DNA of 10,812 nucleotides from Blastocatellia bacterium. GTDB taxonomy: Bacteria > Acidobacteriota > Blastocatellia > Pyrinomonadales > Pyrinomonadaceae. Below the pieces are notes generated by a model. The model had not been told where the DNA came from and did no database searches. It saw only the letters and a program-made list of their open reading frames with translations. Where the stretch lies: NCBI GenBank assembly GCA_003175865.1, contig PSRF01000013.1:1-10812 (forward strand). Direction: 5' to 3'. Made by a program: the position numbers and the translations under genes. Of the stretch, positions 290 through 10,812 are shown piece after piece. Numbering within the stretch: position 1 is the stretch's first letter; each line of letters starts with the position of its first letter.

Positions 290-3200
290 TTATTCATCCT
301 CTCTGTTGCCACGTTTATTACTCGCCAACTCTTCTCGCTCCTCTTTCAATCCCAGACGCATCGCATCGAACGCAGGCAAACGCGCGACTGTCGGCATGGG
401 TGTTGATCCTTTTACTGAAAACCAGATGATGCGATTCAAAGTCTCAGCATCTGCCATGTCCGCATGCGACAAATCCTGTTGCTCAGACTCGCGCATCCAG
501 TAAGCCGTCGCAGCATCGCGTGGCGATGGGTTCATCAGATTGTCGAGTGCAACGTTCGGCAATTGGGCCTGATATGGTCTCAAGTCAGGCTCCGCTCGAA
601 AGATGTCCATCGGCGTCGCGCTCGCGTCGAGTTGGTTCATCGGTTCCATGCCAAGCAGCACTTCGATAGTTCTGATCAAACTCACCGTCGTGTGAAACTG
701 ATGAACAAGAATCCCGGGTCTGTTGTAAGCACTGATCACAAGTCCTACCGATCGGTGAGCATCGACATGATCTGGTCCATCCTGCGCGTCGTCTTCGACA
801 ACAAAGATTGCGGTGTCTTTCCAGTAAGGACTCTTCGAAAGATTTTCAACCATCAACCCCAAAGCATAATCATTGTCGGCAACGAAAAACTGCGGCGTCG
901 GTTGTTTTGACGTAAGTCCGGACGTGTGATCATTCGACAACCTCACGATGGAAAGGTTAGGCATTCGATCCGTACCACTAGTCTCCAGTTCTTTTACGTA
1001 GCTGCGGAACTCGTCGAGCCAAGCTCCGAGCCTGGAGTTCCCGCGAAAGCGTGCATCAGGATTGCTACCACTGATGAAAGGACTCGTGCCTTTTTGTTTT
1101 GCCTGCTGATACGACTCAACCGTCATCGCGTCAGGCGTATCTAGATCAAAATTACGAAACGCATCATTGAAGTGCCCTTCCAACGATTTCTTAGTCGCAA
1201 ATGCGGAAACGTTGGGAGAAAGATCCGGATAGGTTTTTTCCTTGTTCACTTTGATAGCGTCGATGTCTGTCTGGGAGAGGGTGGCGACAAACTCGCCATA
1301 GTTTCGATAAGTGAGATTAGCTCGTGCCGCAGCGTCCCAGAGATACAAGCTTTGTGGCTCGGCAACGTCGCGAGAACCGTGCAAGTAAGGAATAAAGCGG
1401 CGCATGTAGTTTGCGACATCTTCAGTGCCGACAGAAGGACCAAACATTGACGGAGTGTTGCGCTTTGGTTCGTAATCCGGGAGACGGTTGAATCCTTCGA
1501 AATCGTACCCACGACCTCTTTTGCTATAACTCCAACGGAAACTCTTGTCGACGTAATCAGTTGAAAATGCCGCGGTGGACCAGTTATGACCATCCGGACT
1601 CGCTTCCGAATTCACGAAGAAGCGATCAAACAATCCGAACCGCAAAGCGAGCGCACGATGATTTGGTGCGATGTCCTGACGCGTGCCACTGGTTCGAGCC
1701 GCAGCTTGAGTCGATCCAAAGATTGCGAGCGTTGGATCTCCATCAGCGGGCGAGCCATCGCCGGACTTTTCAATGTCGCCAAAAACCTGATCATAGGTGC
1801 GATTCTCTTTGATGATGTAAATCACATGCTTTATCGGCGACGCACCTGCAAAGAGTGGTTGTTTCCCTCCAACCAATGCGTTGGTCTGCATCACTTGTTG
1901 CGTGTAGCGGGCGAGTGTTGGGTCGTCGGGCATGGGAACAGCACTAATATTTCCAACGACAAGCGATACACTGTACTGACCACCCTGCCCTCCTCCGCGA
2001 CCAGTGCCCACAGGAAAACGATCGTTTGGACTATTTGGTGTGCGTCCTGAGTTGTTGACGACAACTGATGAATTCTCGAGCCCGGTACCCTTCCCATTTC
2101 CAACAAAGAGTGTTTGCGCCGCAACTGCAACCGCTGACGGATAGTGTCCGGTGGGAATAAAACCACGGACGCGACTCAGCTGATCTTTGTCGCGCTTTGC
2201 GTATGCAGGCCTGTCACTCGTCCCGGAATTGTCGAGCGACACCGGAGCCAGTGATACAACTGCAACCGAGTTGCTGTGTGCATTCGCGACAAACAACGTC
2301 GTACCTGTGCGATCGAGCGCGATACCTTCAGGACTGTTGCCCTTGAGCGCGCTTTCAGAGAGACGAACATTGATTCGTTCGACTTCGCGATCGTTGCGCG
2401 TGTCGATCATTGAAGCGCTGTCATCGTCGGAATTGACGACGTAAAGCCGAGAGTGTTTTGCATCCCACAACATCGACGTTGGATGCCGTCCAACAGGAAT
2501 GTAGGACACCCTTGAGGATTTGGTCGTCACTTCTACGGCCGCAACAGAGCTGTCGTTCCAACAAGAGACGTAAACTTTCCAGATGGACCGATCACCGATA
2601 TTGGCGGGACGTCGATCGGGAAAGGCATAAAGGTTCGACACATTGAAGCTGGTGGTCACAACACTGTACGGATATGTGAAATGTTCTCCCTCGTTTTGAA
2701 TGTTGTGACCGCGAAGGGGAATTGTTTGGAGTTTTCTGTCGCCGTTCAGATCAGTAATCACGCCAAGGTTATCCGCGAGATTATTTGCGACGAACAGCGT
2801 GTTGCCGTCTGGAGTTATTGAAATACCAGTTGGGTATACGGGCACGTGATTGCTGTTGTAGCGGGGTGAACTTGCAGCATTAGCAAACCCGGTTACATCT
2901 ATGAACGGCGCGTCAACAGTCGTGTTTGGCCCAGCTGAAGTTGGTGTGATCGGGGTCCTAGTCCCAGGGTGAAAGCGAAAGATCCAAATTTTGTTTTCGA
3001 AACCTCCGGAAACGTACAGTTGATATGAACCATCTGGGTTAGGCTGTGGAGAGAAAACGACGCCAACGTTTACGCTTTGCGGTGAAGGAAAGTAGACGTT
3101 CTGAATAACCTGTGGGGTCGGGTTGTTCAGATCGATAACAGCCAGTGACTGCTGTCCAACATTGGCAGCGGAGTTGAACTGGATTCCGTAGCCACTGTTA

Positions 3201-3448
3201 ACTGAGATTAAGTAGCGACCGAGTCCATCAGGGCCTTCGCGATCCGGACTCCGAACAAACTCGACTGGTAATGCGCCGACTGCTGGTTCTTTGGTGTTGG
3301 CATCAATAACCAGCGTGCCGGCGATTGGCTGTTCGCCATTCGCTACAACGTCACTCGGCGCCGCAGCTGGACGGTCAAACACAAGACTCATTGAAAGCGC
3401 GCAGATTACCAGCGCAATTGCGACATTATTTCGTTTAAGTTGTTCCAT
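290..3448 (-). CDS. Exported YVTN beta-propeller / alkaline-phosphatase-like phosphoesterase
   Basis: A 1052-residue protein. Residues 1-30 form a signal peptide: basic start MEQLKR, a hydrophobic run at 9-24, and an alanine-rich likely cleavage site near AAA30. Residues about 75-500 are a beta-propeller of the YncE/YVTN type, with blades showing TLFVANN (218-223), LYVVNSDDD (335-343) and TLFVANAHSNSVAVV (384-398). A glycine-rich linker (481-491) leads to a phosphoesterase domain at about 540-960. That domain has the metal-site signature IIKENRTYDQ (545-554), SPDGHNW (617-623), LSNDHTSG (837-844) and EDDAQDGPDHVDAHR (885-899), as in the phosphoesterase/AcpA-like branch of the alkaline phosphatase superfamily. 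The substrate is unknown; a phosphoester hydrolysed outside the cytoplasm is the expectation. At about 1050 residues it is on the long side for such fusions. The ATG at 3448 gives the complete signal peptide. No Shine-Dalgarno is visible upstream (ctctctcttcaattt). It stands alone and is divergent from the VWA gene. Confidence 0.93.
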   Translation of the reverse strand: MEQLKRNNVAIALVICALSMSLVFDRPAAAPSDVVANGEQPIAGTLVIDANTKEPAVGALPVEFVRSPDREGPDGLGRYLISVNSGYGIQFNSAANVGQQSLAVIDLNNPTPQVIQNVYFPSPQSVNVGVVFSPQPNPDGSYQLYVSGGFENKIWIFRFHPGTRTPITPTSAGPNTTVDAPFIDVTGFANAASSPRYNSNHVPVYPTGISITPDGNTLFVANNLADNLGVITDLNGDRKLQTIPLRGHNIQNEGEHFTYPYSVVTTSFNVSNLYAFPDRRPANIGDRSIWKVYVSCWNDSSVAAVEVTTKSSRVSYIPVGRHPTSMLWDAKHSRLYVVNSDDDSASMIDTRNDREVERINVRLSESALKGNSPEGIALDRTGTTLFVANAHSNSVAVVSLAPVSLDNSGTSDRPAYAKRDKDQLSRVRGFIPTGHYPSAVAVAAQTLFVGNGKGTGLENSSVVVNNSGRTPNSPNDRFPVGTGRGGGQGGQYSVSLVVGNISAVPMPDDPTLARYTQQVMQTNALVGGKQPLFAGASPIKHVIYIIKENRTYDQVFGDIEKSGDGSPADGDPTLAIFGSTQAAARTSGTRQDIAPNHRALALRFGLFDRFFVNSEASPDGHNWSTAAFSTDYVDKSFRWSYSKRGRGYDFEGFNRLPDYEPKRNTPSMFGPSVGTEDVANYMRRFIPYLHGSRDVAEPQSLYLWDAAARANLTYRNYGEFVATLSQTDIDAIKVNKEKTYPDLSPNVSAFATKKSLEGHFNDAFRNFDLDTPDAMTVESYQQAKQKGTSPFISGSNPDARFRGNSRLGAWLDEFRSYVKELETSGTDRMPNLSIVRLSNDHTSGLTSKQPTPQFFVADNDYALGLMVENLSKSPYWKDTAIFVVEDDAQDGPDHVDAHRSVGLVISAYNRPGILVHQFHTTVSLIRTIEVLLGMEPMNQLDASATPMDIFRAEPDLRPYQAQLPNVALDNLMNPSPRDAATAYWMRESEQQDLSHADMADAETLNRIIWFSVKGSTPMPTVARLPAFDAMRLGLKEEREELASNKRGNREDE

Positions 3449-3754: not shown

Positions 3755-6052
3755 ATGGATCGCGTCGTACGGTTCCTGTTTGGACATGAGCAGGCCGTCT
3801 TTCGAAACGGCCGCTTTGGCTTCGACCTGCGTCCAGGCATAGTTGCTCTTCTCGGCATCGTAGCGATTATTGCCGTTGTTATTTACTTCGTTTACATCAA
3901 ACCCCAAACTAGAGTTCAACGTCGAACAGCGACTGTGCTCATCGCGTTACGTGCTGCGCTACTTGCACTGATGATCGTTTTGCTGTTACGACCCGTCGTC
4001 GTTGTTTCGTCGGTCGTCCCTCGCAGTAGCTATGTCGCAGTCGTCGTCGATGATTCGCTCAGCATGAAGTTAAAAGACATGCCTGGCGGTGCAACGAGAC
4101 TAGATGCAGCCAAACAAGCACTCTTCAACAACAAGCCGGGCCAACGTTCATTCATGGACCAGTTGGAAGAACGTTTCAAAACTGATCTTTATGGCTTCTC
4201 CGGCACGCTCACAAAACTAAAAGACCAGAACGACCTTTATGGCGAAGGTCGTAGCAGTGATGTCACCGGCGCCCTGAACGAAACTCTTAAGCGAACATCA
4301 GGAATGCCTCTTTCCGCCGTAGTGATTGCTACTGACGGCGCGGAGAATGTACCCACGGATCTCGCCGCAACTTTGCGAGAACTACGCGCGCGCGATGTCG
4401 GAGTGTTCACGGTCGGGCTCGGTGACACCTCACGTCCAACAGACGCAGAACTGACAAGGATCGACTTGCCTCGACGGGTGATCGTTGGATCGCGCGTGAA
4501 CATTGAAGCCTTTGTAGGCTTGCGTGGTTTTGGATCTACAAAAGTTCTGCTGGGCGTTCGCGAAGATGGTCGTGCGATCAAAACGGAAGAGTTCCAACTG
4601 CGCGGCAACGACACGCAGGCAGTCGACCTTGAGATCACACCGACCACTGCAGGCATACATCGCTACACGGTTGAAATCACACCGCTGGATGGCGAAGTAA
4701 CTCTCGAAAACAACAAACAGGACGCACTCGTCCAGGTAATCGAAGGACCACTTCGTGTGCTGTATGTTGAAGGCGAACCGCGTTGGGAACTAGGCAAGAT
4801 CAGAGAAGCGCTGCAAGTGAATGAAAAGAACGTTTCGATTGTGTCGTTGCAGCGAACTGGTGAGAACAAGTTCTATCGTCAGGGTATTGGTAATCAAAAC
4901 GAACTCCTAACTGGATTTCCAAAAACCGAAGAAGAACTCTTTGCTTACCAGGGAATAATTCTCGGTAGCGTCGAAGCGGGGTTCTTCACCGCCGAACAAC
5001 TGCGCAACATTGAAGCATTTGTGGCAAGACGAGGTGGTGGACTGCTCGCACTCGGCGGACGACTTTCATTTGACGGAGGAAAATTCAAGGGAACCCCCAT
5101 GGGCGATCTCCTGCCAGTTGTTCTCGACGGCGGAAATGTTGATCCGGCGAACTCATATGCTCCTGTTTACAAACCGGTCCTGACTGTTCCAGGTCAGACA
5201 CATCCAATCACACGTCTCAACGACGATCGCGCAGTCAGTCAAAAAACATGGAACGACCTGCCGCCAATTTCAATCTCCGAAATTTTGAGCAACGTTAAGC
5301 CGGGAGCTTCAGTACTGCTTGAGGCCCGGAAAAACGGTTCCTCGCAAGCGGTGCCTTTGCTGATTCAACAACGTTACGGTCGCGGACAAACTCTCGCGCT
5401 GACTGCTACTGATACCTGGCGTTGGCGCATGCGCGCGGATTCCAAGAGCAGTGCACACGAAACCTTCTGGCGTCAGATGCTTAGGTACCTCGTCAGTTTC
5501 ACGCCGTCGGAAACTGAGATTAGCGCTGCCCAGGACGTGTATGCGCTTGACGACACGATTCGTGTGGTCGCAGAGATACGAGACAAAAAATACAACGCAG
5601 TTCCGGATGCACATGCTACGGCGCATATTACTAAACCTTCAGGCGCAACGGTCGATCTGCCGCTTAAGTTCACTACCCTGAACGACGTGAATGCTTATGT
5701 TGGTGAATTCAGAGCAGACGAGTTAGGCCAACACAAGATCGTGTTAGGAGGAAACAGCCCAACTCTCGGCCAACTGAGCGCAAGCTCAAACGTTCTGGTG
5801 AGCGATCTGAATCGCGAGTATTTTGGCGCGACACAGAACGTTGATTTGTTGAAGAGATTAGCAACAGAGACTGGCGGAAAGTACTACACGAGCAGCAACC
5901 TGCAATCACTCGTTGACGATCTGACTTATCGCCAAACTCCGTACTCGGAGCGAGTAACCAAAGATCTTTGGGATATGCCAATCAACTTCGTATTGATTAT
6001 TGGGTTGTTGAGTGCCGAGTGGTTCTTAAGAAAACGTGAAGGTCTGGCGTGA
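3755..6052 (+). CDS. Membrane-anchored VWA protein with cysteine-free glutamine-amidotransferase-like domain
   Basis: A 765-residue protein, probably anchored in the inner membrane with its bulk in the periplasm. Two helices (about 29-47 and 60-80) precede a von Willebrand A domain (about 92-225). The VWA domain has a complete MIDAS: D99-x-S101-x-S103, T171, and D194 in ATDG. A beta-sandwich-like region (about 235-330) is followed by a class I glutamine-amidotransferase-like domain (about 332-560, with VLYVEGEPRWE, GGGLLALGG and GRGQTLALTATDTWRW). A second beta-rich segment (about 590-685) and a C-terminal helix (742-757, INFVLIIGLLSAEWFL) end in a basic tail. This is the architecture of the large VWA proteins found beside MoxR/DUF58 genes. 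The protein contains no cysteine, so the GATase-like domain cannot act as an amidotransferase and is probably a structural or binding module. An in-frame TAA at 3749-3751 makes ATG 3755 the first possible ATG. Likely role: metal-dependent adhesion or assembly partner of a MoxR ATPase. Confidence 0.9.
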   Translation: MDRVVRFLFGHEQAVFRNGRFGFDLRPGIVALLGIVAIIAVVIYFVYIKPQTRVQRRTATVLIALRAALLALMIVLLLRPVVVVSSVVPRSSYVAVVVDDSLSMKLKDMPGGATRLDAAKQALFNNKPGQRSFMDQLEERFKTDLYGFSGTLTKLKDQNDLYGEGRSSDVTGALNETLKRTSGMPLSAVVIATDGAENVPTDLAATLRELRARDVGVFTVGLGDTSRPTDAELTRIDLPRRVIVGSRVNIEAFVGLRGFGSTKVLLGVREDGRAIKTEEFQLRGNDTQAVDLEITPTTAGIHRYTVEITPLDGEVTLENNKQDALVQVIEGPLRVLYVEGEPRWELGKIREALQVNEKNVSIVSLQRTGENKFYRQGIGNQNELLTGFPKTEEELFAYQGIILGSVEAGFFTAEQLRNIEAFVARRGGGLLALGGRLSFDGGKFKGTPMGDLLPVVLDGGNVDPANSYAPVYKPVLTVPGQTHPITRLNDDRAVSQKTWNDLPPISISEILSNVKPGASVLLEARKNGSSQAVPLLIQQRYGRGQTLALTATDTWRWRMRADSKSSAHETFWRQMLRYLVSFTPSETEISAAQDVYALDDTIRVVAEIRDKKYNAVPDAHATAHITKPSGATVDLPLKFTTLNDVNAYVGEFRADELGQHKIVLGGNSPTLGQLSASSNVLVSDLNREYFGATQNVDLLKRLATETGGKYYTSSNLQSLVDDLTYRQTPYSERVTKDLWDMPINFVLIIGLLSAEWFLRKREGLA

Positions 6053-6056
6053 TGTT

Positions 6057-6153
6057 CTCTGCGTTCCCTCCGCGTTCTCTGCACCTCTGCGGTTTTAATT
6101 AGCGGAATTAGACTCAACCACAGAGGCGCAGAGGACACAGAGGAAACGCAGAG
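6057..6153. repeat. 38-bp-arm near-perfect palindrome (cacagaggcgcagag-type repeat)
   Basis: Arms 6057-6094 and 6116-6153 are reverse complements over 38 nt with six differences, all transitions. The 21-nt loop holds a nested taatt/aatta stem (6096-6110). The left arm begins 4 nt after the VWA stop codon. Because of the nature of the changes, five of the six differences become G-U pairs in a minus-strand transcript, against one on the plus strand. From memory, repeats with the theme accacagaggc-cagagg are widespread between genes in several environmental bacterial phyla; I cannot verify this here. In the plus-strand transcript it would form a strong hairpin between two genes and might reduce expression of the downstream pair. 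Confidence 0.8.
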
Positions 6154-6176
6154 AGTCTACTGAAACGTAAATACAC

Positions 6177-7175
6177 ATGAGTCACAATTGGGTCGCCACT
6201 GTTTTCGTTAGTCTGGTACTGGCGGTCTCTGTGTGTTCACAAACAACGACTCCCAAACCTGCACCTCCCGACAAGAACAAGTTTGCGCTGATCATAAGTG
6301 GACCAGGAGGTGAACCGGACTACTCAAAACAATTTGACCAATGGACCACGCAACTACAACAAATACTAACTTCGAGGTACAGCTTCCCTGCTGAACAGTT
6401 GGCAATCTTGAATGAGACAGGCTCAAAGGGTGCAAAGAAGTCGACGGCGGAAGAAGTTAGGAACGCATTCTCTTCGCTACAAACAAAGCTCCAACCTGAC
6501 AACGTTCTTTACGTGTTCTTCATCGGCCACGGAAGCTCTGATGGACGCGAGTCGAAATTCAATTTAGTTGGTCGCGACATGTCCGCAACGGACTACGCCA
6601 GTCTCTTCGCCGCTTTGCCTACAAAGCGAATTGTCATCTTCAACATGTCGAGTGCAAGCGGAGAGTTCATCAAGAGTCTTTCGACTAAGGGCCGCGTCGT
6701 TGTTACGGCAACTCGTAGTGGTCAGGAGCAAAACGCAACGCGCTTTCCCGGTTTCTTCATTTCCGCGTTGTCTGCATCAGATGCAGACGCAGATCAGGAC
6801 GGACACATCTCTGTCCTGGAAGCGTTTGCTTACGCGACTCGTCTAACGGCCGAATTCTATTCACGCGCGGGTCGTCTCGCCACTGAACATGCGCTTCTGG
6901 AGGACAACGGCGACGGCGTTGGACACGAAAAGATGGAAGAGGGTGATGGACTGCTGGCACGGGCAACCTATCTCGACTCCTTAAATGTGGAACAGGCTGC
7001 GGCAAACGTCGCAACCGCGAAGTTGCTTCGCGAAAAGGAGCGACTTGAGAGTGATATAAACGAGTTGATTGGAAATAAAAGAAATCTGAGTGAAGCTGAG
7101 TACGAATCAAGACTTGAGAAACTGTTTATCGAGTTAGCGAAGATCAACCGAACTATTAAGCAGGCTGGATCGTGA
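6177..7175 (+). CDS. Secreted caspase/legumain-fold protein lacking the catalytic cysteine (pseudo-caspase), with EF-hand loop
   Basis: A 332-residue exported protein. The signal peptide is about 1-22 (VATVFVSLVLAVSVCSQ); valine before Cys20 argues against a lipobox. Residues about 35-250 resemble C13/caspase-like (clan CD) domains: a strand at KFALIISG, a helix, YVFFIGHGSSDGR with the expected catalytic His118, the strand RIVIFNMSSASGEF, then VVVTATRSGQEQNATRF. Aligning SGEF with the usual CxSG block puts Ser159 (AGT, 6651-6653) at the nucleophile position. No cysteine occurs after residue 20, so cysteine peptidase activity is excluded. Residues 204-215 form a textbook EF-hand loop (DADQDGHISVLE). 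An EDNGDGVGH motif (242-250), seen in related bacterial proteins, follows. The C-terminus (about 265-328) is charged, helical and probably coiled-coil. No clear ribosome binding site precedes ATG 6177. The frame continues open past its TGA to 7302-7304. Confidence 0.85.
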   Translation: MSHNWVATVFVSLVLAVSVCSQTTTPKPAPPDKNKFALIISGPGGEPDYSKQFDQWTTQLQQILTSRYSFPAEQLAILNETGSKGAKKSTAEEVRNAFSSLQTKLQPDNVLYVFFIGHGSSDGRESKFNLVGRDMSATDYASLFAALPTKRIVIFNMSSASGEFIKSLSTKGRVVVTATRSGQEQNATRFPGFFISALSASDADADQDGHISVLEAFAYATRLTAEFYSRAGRLATEHALLEDNGDGVGHEKMEEGDGLLARATYLDSLNVEQAAANVATAKLLREKERLESDINELIGNKRNLSEAEYESRLEKLFIELAKINRTIKQAGS

Positions 7176-7304
7176 CGAAGGCGTTTTAACGGTTTACGAA
7201 AACAAGAACCCAGTTCGCCTAAGGAGTTTGAATTTGAAAATGAAATGGTCAGCGTGGAGGAGCTCACTCAGATTGCGATTTATCAGATAATCTTTGAAGA
7301 GTGA
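7176..7304 (+). other. In-frame open extension after the pseudo-caspase stop codon
   Basis: Beyond the TGA at 7173-7175 the same frame remains open for 42 codons and ends at TGA 7302-7304. The second half would read KEFEFENEMVSVEELTQ and onward, an acidic, helix-friendly peptide. The final TGA overlaps a possible GTG start (7301) of the next gene in a GTGA arrangement typical of coupled genes. It may be the lost C-terminus of the pseudo-caspase, a readthrough extension, or chance. An AAGGAG sits at 7221-7226 with no well-spaced start in this frame. No independent gene is supported here. Confidence 0.35.
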
Positions 7305-7333
7305 GAAAAGTCTTGGGACTGAAGAGACCGAGG

Positions 7334-9949
7334 ATGTTCAGACATTCGAAATCAACATGGTTCTTGATCGGTTGCGCGCTTCTGGCACTCTATTCGAAAA
7401 GTGTCACTGCGCAGACCACTCAACTTCCCGGTGTCGCTGAACTCAAGAAGGGCGACTACGAAAACGCAATCAAACTATTCAACTCGCGACTTGTCAGTAG
7501 CCCATCGGATCAAAATGCAGAAGCTGGTCTCGTCCGTGCTTTGATCGAAACCGGAAGGTACCTGGAAGCTGAGAACTCCGCCAAGAAATATTTGCTGAAG
7601 AACGCTGATGCCGGGTTAGTACACCACGAACTCGCAGAAGTGTTGGCCGTCACAGGCCGTTACACTGAAGCAATCGCCGAATTCGAACGAGCGCTTCAAG
7701 CGACGAAAGCGACCGAAGATAAACTTCAAAGCGAGTTACGTCGTGCTGAACTGCTCGAATTAACAGGACAGGAAGATCGAGCGAAGCCAATCTACGAGTC
7801 CTTCGTTTCCTACTACACGGAAAAAAATCCGCAAGACGCTCCATCGCTGACTTGGATTGCACGTGCGTTGGTCCACCTTGAGCGCTTTCAGGATGCAAAC
7901 GACCTCTATCGTAGCGCGCTCGAAGCGGACTCTTCATTTCTCGAAGCGCAACTCAGTGCAGCCGAGCTGTACACCCAGAAATACAACTACAGTGACGCGA
8001 CGCAGTTTCTAGACGACGCATTGCAAATCAACCAAAAGAGCGCCCGCGCTCATCTCGATGTTGCTCTCAACAAAGCTCTCGAAGGTGGCGAACTGATGTC
8101 AGCGGAGTTAGCTCGAGCGTTGGAAATCAATCCTAACTTTGTCGAAGCCCTTACCTGTAAAGGAGGTGTCGAACTAGAGGCTGGTCACTTCGAAGCCGCT
8201 ACTTCTCACATTGAAAAAGCACTGAGAATCAATCCCCGTTCACTCGATGCTCATTCGCAAGCCGCCTCGGCGTTGTACCTGCAGGATCGCGATTACGCTG
8301 GCGAGATAACAACTGCACTACAAATCAGCCCGCATTACGGAAAGATCTATGACACACTCGCGCATTTCGCGACCAACACAAGACGAACCGATCAAGCCGC
8401 CGGGTTTGCCCGAAAAGCAATTGGACTCTCGCCACGACTCTGGAACGCTCATCTAACTTTAGGAATGTCGCTTTTGCGCATGGGACAAATGGAGGAAGGA
8501 CGCGCTGAAGTCGAAAAAGCATTCAAAGGCGATCCGTTCAACCTCTGGGCCAAGAACACACTAGACCTGCTCGACACGATGCAGGATTTTAAAGAAACCA
8601 AGAGTGGGGTCTTTCTGATCAAAGCGTCCGCGCGCGAATCGGATGTTCTTTCCAATTACGCTGCTGAACTCCTGCAGGAAGCAAGTACCAAACTGATCGC
8701 GAAGTATCACTTCACGCCTAAGGGTCCGATTACCATCGAGTTGTTTCCAAACCACGAAGACTTTGCAGTACGCACTCTTGGAATACCGGGATTAGGCGCT
8801 CTCGGAGTTTGCTTTGGACAGGTCATCGCTCAAGATTCACCATCTGCCCGGGGAACAGGCGAATTCAACTGGGGCTCAACTCTTTGGCATGAATACACGC
8901 ACGTCATCACGCTGCAGATGACCGACTACCGCATTCCTCGTTGGTTCTCGGAAGGATTATCAGTCTATGAAGAACGACGTGCGCGACCTGGTTGGGGGGA
9001 TGACTGGAACCCGATGTTTGTACGCGCGCTTGTCGCTGGTCGCTGGTTCAAGATCGCAGATCTCGATGCCGGCTTCCAAAGACCGCGTAGTCCGACAGAT
9101 GTCCCGATCGCTTACTTCGAAGCCTCCCAGATATGCGAGTTTATTGCCGAGCGGTTTGGCTTCGATGCAATTTTGAAAATGCTTGCGCTCTATCGCGACA
9201 AAGCAAATACATCCGACATCCTGCGGCAGGTATTGAAACTCAGCGACAGCGAATTCGATCGAGAATTCTCAGCCTGGATTGAATCAAAAACTCGTCCCCT
9301 TGCAGCAGCATTAAGAACGGAAGCGAACGTTGTCGCCTCATTATCAAAAGATGAAGTCCTAAAAATGCTCGCAACCGAAGATACGTTCGCACTGCACGTT
9401 CGCGCGGGCGAGTTGCTCGCGGCTGACGGTAATGTTGACGATGCGATTAAGCATTTCAGGCGGGCGATAGAGTTGTTTCCCTACTACACGGAACAAGGAA
9501 ATCCCTACCCCTCCGTAGCCAAACTTCTCGAGCAAAAGGGTGATCTCGCCCAGGCTGCAGACGCCTGGGAAGCACTCGCAAAACAAGATGAAAACAATCT
9601 CGACGCATTGAAGGCTGTCACTCGTTTGCGCCTGAGTCTCAGCGATCGCTCGCGCGGACTTGAGGCTTTGCGGTTGAGTTTCTACGTCAGTCCCTTTGAT
9701 TATGCACTGCACGCTCGCGCTGGAGACTTGAGTATGGAATCGAAGGACTACGCACAAGCTCTAAATGAGTTTAAGGTGACACTTGCGTTGCAACCACCGA
9801 ATATTGCTGAGGCAAACTACAATATTGCTAACGCGTATCATTTGATGGGCCAGCAGCTTGACGCGAAGCGTGCAGTATTGCGGGCGCTCGAAGCTGCACC
9901 GCGTTACGAAAAAGCGCAGGAGTTATTGTTACAGATAGTTGGGCAATGA
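7334..9949 (+). CDS. Secreted TPR protein with embedded zinc metallopeptidase (gluzincin, peptidase MA-like) domain
   Basis: The longest frame starts at GTG 7301 (882 residues, numbering used here). I prefer ATG 7334 (residue 12) because it gives a compact signal peptide with hydrophobic core WFLIGCALLALYS and cleavage near VTA37-Q. GAAGAG lies 7 nt upstream, while GTG 7301 has a purine run directly abutting it. Residues about 44-425 are tandem tetratricopeptide repeats, for example GRYTEAIAEFERAL (119-132) and GHFEAATSHIEKALRINP (295-312). Residues about 437-665 are a metallopeptidase domain with HEYTH (530-534) and a third zinc ligand Glu551 in FSEGLSVYEE, the HExxH-(16)-E pattern of gluzincins. 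Residues about 690-880 are more TPRs. The family is usually annotated as tetratricopeptide plus peptidase MA-like. The zinc ligands and catalytic Glu531 are intact. It is the only evidently complete protease in the rightward cluster. Likely role: periplasmic proteolysis with TPR-mediated substrate or partner binding. It follows the pseudo-caspase closely. Confidence 0.92.
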   Translation: MFRHSKSTWFLIGCALLALYSKSVTAQTTQLPGVAELKKGDYENAIKLFNSRLVSSPSDQNAEAGLVRALIETGRYLEAENSAKKYLLKNADAGLVHHELAEVLAVTGRYTEAIAEFERALQATKATEDKLQSELRRAELLELTGQEDRAKPIYESFVSYYTEKNPQDAPSLTWIARALVHLERFQDANDLYRSALEADSSFLEAQLSAAELYTQKYNYSDATQFLDDALQINQKSARAHLDVALNKALEGGELMSAELARALEINPNFVEALTCKGGVELEAGHFEAATSHIEKALRINPRSLDAHSQAASALYLQDRDYAGEITTALQISPHYGKIYDTLAHFATNTRRTDQAAGFARKAIGLSPRLWNAHLTLGMSLLRMGQMEEGRAEVEKAFKGDPFNLWAKNTLDLLDTMQDFKETKSGVFLIKASARESDVLSNYAAELLQEASTKLIAKYHFTPKGPITIELFPNHEDFAVRTLGIPGLGALGVCFGQVIAQDSPSARGTGEFNWGSTLWHEYTHVITLQMTDYRIPRWFSEGLSVYEERRARPGWGDDWNPMFVRALVAGRWFKIADLDAGFQRPRSPTDVPIAYFEASQICEFIAERFGFDAILKMLALYRDKANTSDILRQVLKLSDSEFDREFSAWIESKTRPLAAALRTEANVVASLSKDEVLKMLATEDTFALHVRAGELLAADGNVDDAIKHFRRAIELFPYYTEQGNPYPSVAKLLEQKGDLAQAADAWEALAKQDENNLDALKAVTRLRLSLSDRSRGLEALRLSFYVSPFDYALHARAGDLSMESKDYAQALNEFKVTLALQPPNIAEANYNIANAYHLMGQQLDAKRAVLRALEAAPRYEKAQELLLQIVGQ

Positions 9950-10120: not shown

Positions 10121-10812
10121 ATGGCGGTTGAACAATTAACCATTAGCGACGAGCAACTACTCGACAAACTCGCAACTGCTCGCGAACGCCTGCTGCGTGA
10201 AATTCGCAAAGCAATAGTTGGACAAGACGACGTGGTCGAGCAAGTACTGCTGTCGTTGTTTGTTGGTGGCCATTCGATCATCACCGGCGTGCCCGGTTTA
10301 GCAAAAACACTTCTGGTGCGAACGATCTCAAGTGTTCTCGATCTATCGTTCAAACGGATTCAGTTCACGCCCGACCTGATGCCCGCCGACATTACCGGCA
10401 CTGAAATCATCGAAGAAGATCGCGCGACGGGCCATCGTGCAATGCAATTCATCCGTGGACCAATCTTCGCCAACATCGTGCTCGCAGACGAGATCAATCG
10501 CACACCACCGAAGACCCAGGCGGCTCTGCTCGAGGCAATGCAGGAAGGACGCGTCACCGTTCAAGGTGTCAGTTATGACCTGCCGCGTCCTTTCCACGTA
10601 CTCGCGACGCAGAATCCGATTGAGATGGAAGGAACTTATCCACTCCCTGAGGCACAGCTCGACCGATTCATGTTCAACGTGCGCATCGGTTACCTGCCTG
10701 AAGAAGAAGAAGTGGCGGTTGTGAAACAGACAACGTCGCCACAGGATTATAAGTTTGAACGGTTGATGTCAGCTGAAGAGATCGTCGCGTTCCAAAAGTT
10801 GGTGAAACAGGT
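10121..10812 (+). CDS. MoxR-family AAA+ ATPase, 3' end beyond the window
   Basis: The first 230 codons of a cytoplasmic AAA+ ATPase; MoxR proteins are usually about 310-340 residues, so the C-terminal lid is missing only because the window ends. Visible parts are the N-terminal helix, IVGQDDVVEQVL (32-43), Walker A GVPGLAKT (56-63), FTPDLMPADITG (82-93), Walker B IVLADEINR (119-127), PKTQAALLEAMQE (130-142), sensor 1 in ATQNPIE (Asn165), and the arginine-finger region PEAQLDRF (176-183). All catalytic motifs are intact. MoxR ATPases typically partner with VWA proteins and DUF58 proteins in assembly or maturation of envelope or redox complexes. The VWA gene in this window is the obvious partner but is separated by two genes and a repeat element, so MoxR may start its own transcript. 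Confidence 0.95.
   Translation, partial: MAVEQLTISDEQLLDKLATARERLLREIRKAIVGQDDVVEQVLLSLFVGGHSIITGVPGLAKTLLVRTISSVLDLSFKRIQFTPDLMPADITGTEIIEEDRATGHRAMQFIRGPIFANIVLADEINRTPPKTQAALLEAMQEGRVTVQGVSYDLPRPFHVLATQNPIEMEGTYPLPEAQLDRFMFNVRIGYLPEEEEVAVVKQTTSPQDYKFERLMSAEEIVAFQKLVKQ

Follow-up and report, generated by a model that had tools for sequence, protein, structure and literature searches.

The 10,812-nucleotide stretch analysed here (the window; positions 1 to 10,812 of contig PSRF01000013.1, assembly GCA_003175865.1) comes from Blastocatellia bacterium, a member of the Acidobacteriota of the Pyrinomonadaceae family. It harbours a gene coding for a protein with the predicted fold of caspases and legumains that lacks a Cys residue at the nucleophile position. 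The upstream gene codes for a membrane protein with VWA and GATase1-like domains, hereafter the VWA-GATase protein. Downstream, there are genes for a tetratricopeptide repeat (TPR) protein with a metallopeptidase domain and for an AAA+ ATPase of the MoxR type (Table 1).

Table 1. Features of the window, with positions on its forward strand and the basis of each assignment
Feature	Position	Strand	Basis or remark
Membrane protein with a Bat-type VWA domain and a Cys-less GATase1-like domain	3755..6052	+	Steady neighbour
Cys-less C13/caspase-fold protein, 332 residues	6177..7175	+	Translation, homologues
Predicted signal peptide, residues 1-21, includes C20	6177..6239	+	Hydropathy and homologue N-termini; putative cleavage site
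Caspase/legumain-fold domain, residues 33-269	6273..6983	+	Predicted model, structure matches, profile alignment
His118, equivalent of the catalytic His	6528..6530	+	136/136 readable rows
Ser159, nucleophile column (Cys in C13)	6651..6653	+	Cys in 0/137 rows
Ser161, Ser of the CxSG block	6657..6659	+	136/137 rows
EF-hand-like loop D204-x-D206-x-D208-G-x-x-S212-x-x-E215, predicted Ca2+ site	6786..6821	+	Conservation; putative Ca2+ binding
Second acidic loop, E242-D-N-G-D-G-V-G249	6900..6923	+	Common to C13
Two predicted long helices at the C-terminus, residues 271-331	6987..7169	+	Predicted secondary structure
TPR protein with a Peptidase MA domain, HEYTH from residue 530	7301..9949	+	Variable operon member; mechanically listed start codon
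MoxR-type AAA+ ATPase, interrupted by the window end	10121..10810	+	A homologue is typed AAA_3

Translation of 6177-7172 yields an intact G117-H118-G119-S120 motif, and the block in which the nucleophile is expected reads M157-S158-S159-A160-S161-G162, followed by E-F, with Ser159 encoded by AGT and Ser161 by AGC. The sole Cys residue, C20, belongs to a hydrophobic N-terminal segment, in agreement with a previous sequence-only reading of the window that had found none after residue 20. In the 120 listed homologues that we examined, out of at least 3363 protein matches, A-Q is the commonest continuation after the first Cys, a pattern reminiscent of signal peptidase I sites. Because of this pattern and of the location of C20, the protein is probably exported, and its mature form is predicted to be devoid of Cys. 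The confidence of the structure model is low over residues 1-26.

The predicted model of the protein matches legumain and metacaspase structures. In a profile alignment to Arabidopsis metacaspase-4, Ser159 is found opposite C139 (Cys in entry 6w8s, Ala in the C139A entry 6w8r), and in a profile-profile alignment with 28 bacterial Peptidase_C13 proteins it is found opposite a Cys kept in all of them. By these three alignment and model results, Ser159 does occupy the nucleophile column, no other residue being placed there, and the clan CD caspase/hemoglobinase fold proposed in the sequence-only reading is supported. Of the peptidase families, C13 (legumain) is the nearest, ahead of the C14 caspases. 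Thus, PF01650 matches 19 of 23 family members at E-values up to 0.1, the best being 5.1e-8, with the window protein scoring 16.4 bits, below the curated Pfam cut-off of 22.8. PF00656 (p20) matches two of the 23 at the same threshold, and no match to the window protein was obtained with it at E-values up to 1. NCBIfam and PADLOC scans of the window protein yielded weak matches only, including one to the PADLOC caspase model (20.2 bits, E-value 6.9e-5, residues 60-124).

How widespread the replacement of Cys is became apparent from homologues. In a public genome collection, the best 80 named loci were kept out of at least 544 encoding a relative, and in three of the locus samplings only part of the matches were turned into loci. 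Position 159 is Ser in all 139 close homologues, i.e., the 120 listed proteins, including that of the window, and 19 loci. The alignment also contained seven distant loci, with Cys (six) or Pro (one) in that column. A more divergent set comprises 137 rows, with one row per locus, distinct sequences, at least 150 bits and at least 180 filled positions. Its residues at position 159 are S104 T19 E5 A4 P3 N1 D1, and Cys is found in none of the 137 rows. Looser matches, including eight rows with Cys in that column, were left outside the set as outgroups. As these more distant matches have the Cys, the simple reading would be that it was lost before the radiation of the family, the tree being unrooted. 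The change from AGT to the Cys codon TGT takes a single base, which might have pointed to a lone mutation, a pseudogene or a sequencing error. The occurrence of non-Cys residues throughout the family, in several phyla and in open frames, contradicts that explanation and leaves it next to no chance of being right; a sequencing error or a pseudogene is ruled out by the open frames and the Ser at position 159 of close homologues.

Other candidate nucleophiles were considered. Ser161 is near-invariant (136 of 137 rows, Gly in L181), yet a Ser is also present there in all 28 Cys-bearing C13 proteins, and a structural role is therefore simpler. A relocated Cys is found at positions 157 or 160 in just three and four of the 137 rows, respectively.

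Strong matches to the window protein (E-values below 1e-50) are present in 85 of 297 sampled genomes of its phylum. The titles of the 80 kept loci come from at least seven phyla, the named hosts being mainly Acidobacteriota and Gemmatimonadota. One family member in a record titled Gammaproteobacteria (L103) groups with the phylum of L050 (Gemmatimonadetes) and perhaps stems from a mislabelled bin. A PF01650 search of 199 genomes of the phylum retrieved seven places, some of which belong to the Cys-less family and some of which have the Cys. A genome of the same taxonomic family as the window codes for a Cys-bearing C13 protein (L216, G128:C25) with an LEPCFSGG motif and a similar acidic loop; neither a VWA nor a MoxR homologue turned up in the 12 kb read. 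As for L187-L197, which belong to the Verrucomicrobiota phylum like L097, they have a weaker version of the domain, in many cases within open frames of 700-900 residues. Their His is mostly kept, L195 being without it as well, and no Cys was found in the 159 column wherever a residue aligned.

The family shares with Peptidase C13 the fold, the His, the position of the CxSG-type block, an EF-hand-like loop and a DNGDG loop, and it differs by the absence of the nucleophile and by further losses. The Glu located two residues before the Cys in 28/28 bacterial C13 proteins is found in none of the 137 rows, column 157 being occupied by T, A, M, G, L, C, F, V or S. A nearly invariant Asp of C13 aligns with T188, where the family has T124 A7 P4 S1 I1, and an invariant Arg aligns with Q52, a mixed position at which 27 of the 137 rows keep Arg. 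In legumain, the S1 pocket is described as comprising Arg44, His45, Ser216 and Asp231, in legumain numbering (PMC4357240). Other residues are strictly conserved, with D204, S212, E215 and E237 each present in all 137 rows. In the EF-hand-type loop, position 206 is D or N, position 208 is D, N or S, and G209 is a Gly in 80 of 137 rows; the Pfam EF-hand_5 model scores 10 bits on the window protein for a cut-off of 25.9. The D243-N-G-D-G-x-G249 loop is kept as well, and both acidic loops are also present in the Cys-bearing C13 set. They probably bind Ca2+, as judged from their sequences.

The genetic context of the family is dominated by one neighbour. A homologue of the VWA-GATase gene adjoins the caspase-fold gene in 76 of 80 loci, and MoxR is downstream in 48 of the 58 loci with 5 kb readable. 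Among 59 relatives, 19 have strong matches to both the caspase-fold and VWA genes, and 38 to neither, with E-value cut-offs of 1e-60 and 1e-90, respectively; five genomes (G018, G039, G029, G026 and G037) have weaker VWA-protein matches and no strong caspase-fold match. The two discordant genomes both involve contig ends. In G028, the caspase-fold gene starts at a contig edge, another contig having part of the VWA gene at its own edge, and in G008 the contig stops 35 bp past the VWA gene. The upstream side of 13 of the 14 rows with neither S nor T at position 159 was inspected, L182 being left out. The VWA gene is adjacent in 11 of the 12 readable cases, L043 being the exception, and L177 runs off its contig. 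As these rows keep their neighbour, the linkage of the pair does not need a hydroxyl group at position 159. The VWA-GATase protein of the window has no Cys anywhere, and its GATase elbow is without Cys in 80/80 readable rows, which makes it a second retired Cys-hydrolase fold within the same gene pair.

The sequence-only reading had considered an adaptor or inhibitor role towards the adjacent metallopeptidase attractive. The two genes do adjoin in the window, 125 bp separating the stop codon of the first from the listed start of the second. In most Blastocatellia-type loci among the top-ranked neighbourhoods, a TPR-metallopeptidase homologue likewise lies downstream. Nevertheless, of the 63 loci of the sampling in which 3.5 kb or more could be read, it was found downstream in 33, a count set by a detection limit of E 1e-5 that generic TPR matches may inflate and divergent ones may escape. 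Compared with the near-constant VWA-GATase neighbour, this weakens the proposal, which we now regard as unlikely.

In the one relative that was fully typed, L219, the genes belong to AAA_3, DUF58, VWA_2 with BatA, and DUF4159, the composition of a MoxR/Bat-type operon. Such operons bring together MoxR, DUF58 and VWA/Bat genes, and Rhizobium mutants in one of them, the cmd operon (RL3499-RL3502), show envelope and morphology changes (PMC5700661). Because related operons give envelope phenotypes, we would place the caspase-fold protein at the envelope too. One difference is that a caspase-fold gene goes unmentioned in the accessible part of that report. MoxR and VWA proteins also co-occur with caspase domains, often inactive, in ternary conflict systems directed against invaders (PMC7159879), and the protein might be an inactive effector of this kind. 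There, however, the effector domains are varied and fused to the VWA protein, whereas the window has a separate, conserved gene whose product likely carries a signal peptide. The linked genes are of the Bat, DUF58 and DUF4159 types, and the PADLOC caspase model matches weakly. Altogether, this makes a conflict effector very improbable.

We thus favour, with somewhat better than even confidence, an exported, C13-derived pseudopeptidase that would be a non-catalytic, Ca2+-stabilised binding partner of the upstream VWA-GATase protein, encoded in an envelope operon. Its ancestor would be a bacterial Peptidase C13 whose fold, former catalytic His and two acidic loops have been retained, and whose nucleophile Cys and nearby Glu were lost, in the simplest scenario ahead of the family's expansion. 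The exported module would most likely bind the VWA-GATase protein itself or a peptide presented by it, and the pocket around His118 would accommodate a peptide or a protein segment. The setting would be an envelope operon of the MoxR/DUF58/DUF4159/Bat type. Of the two options left by the sequence-only reading, the pseudo-enzyme is thus favoured over the serine-dependent variant, because A, E, P, N or D occupy position 159 in 14 of 137 rows, following at least seven changes, the VWA neighbour is kept in 11 of the 12 readable cases among those rows and His118 is constant.

Several observations weigh against this interpretation. Position 159 is S or T in 123 of the 137 rows, and His118 is kept in all 136 readable rows, stricter conservation than expected of a mere scaffold. 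The invariance of this His is left without explanation by the pseudopeptidase model; it represents its weakest point and the best argument for a hydrolase. In addition, at four of the 80 loci no VWA gene was observed next to the caspase-fold gene. For L039, the matching genome has it some 5.8 kb upstream, and L045 begins at a contig edge; L043 and L089 are left unexplained. Finally, gene linkage is no proof of contact. The missing Cys, the relationship to C13, the pattern of conservation and the linkage itself are observed; the export, the physical partnership, the Ca2+ binding, the pocket binding and the envelope role we infer.

The conservation of S or T at position 159 and of His118 would fit a Ser/Thr-dependent clan CD hydrolase in which His118 activates the hydroxyl group, with activity secondarily lost in the A/E/P/N/D lineages. 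The uniform Ser of the close homologues and the use of both Ser codon classes (91 AGY and 13 TCN) go in the same direction. In the clade of the window, however, all 26 rows have AGY, and the fixity of Ser there thus stems in part from short distance. Moreover, the 14 other rows, seven of which form one clade, show that the family does not have the invariant catalytic Ser of a serine hydrolase; the seven or more changes between S/T and other residues were counted on a tree computed with FastTree, columns 156-163 being excluded. The loss of the Glu before the Cys and of the Asp aligned with T188, together with the VWA neighbour retained in 11 of the 12 readable non-S/T rows, also argues against catalysis. 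S and T are frequent at strand ends in this family, as in column 120 (S71 T32 of 110 rows). We therefore consider a Ser/Thr hydrolase quite unlikely. An extended version, in which the majority of the family would represent the first nucleophile swap of this fold, switched by Ca2+ and by MoxR/VWA-GATase at the envelope, appears more doubtful still.

Retired clan CD peptidases have precedents. Reportedly, Trypanosoma brucei MCA4 is a metacaspase that has become a pseudopeptidase, the changed residue being Ser. It is similar to the present family in being a clan CD pseudopeptidase and differs in being a single eukaryotic paralogue of C14 rather than C13. In bacteria, pseudo-orthocaspases, whose C14B p20 domains have an altered dyad, likewise show a substitution of the catalytic Cys, in many cases by Ser (PMC6426788, PMC3501461). 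They made up 8.6 percent in one survey, with 90% belonging to Alphaproteobacteria or Cyanobacteria, and in the commonest variant the His is also replaced by Tyr (PMC6426788). Among prokaryotic caspase homologues of the C14 type, 84 percent were reported to have an intact dyad, Ser being the commonest substitute (PMC3501461). In contrast, the family described here has an invariant His, a C13-like lineage and named hosts that are mainly Acidobacteriota and Gemmatimonadota. The dead caspase-fold proteins of those two surveys are variants inside C14 (PMC6426788, PMC3501461), whereas here a C13-derived family has lost the Cys as a group. We found no report on this family among open-licence papers, and among clan CD pseudopeptidases it is apparently novel in lineage, breadth and operon. 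Its gene is linked to that of a single membrane partner, which has a likewise Cys-less GATase domain. This defined two-gene unit, in an operon type linked to envelope integrity, offers a setting in which to study the reuse of a retired peptidase fold.

Two other elements of the window can be mentioned. Between the VWA-GATase and caspase-fold genes (6056-6154) lies an imperfect 39-nt inverted repeat, 85% complementary with a 21-nt spacer and rich in CAGAG/CTCTG units, which looks like a repetitive extragenic palindromic (REP)-type intergenic element. On the reverse strand, a divergently transcribed gene (290-3448) codes for a protein of 1052 residues that, inspected by eye, reads like a YncE-type beta-propeller plus a phosphoesterase.
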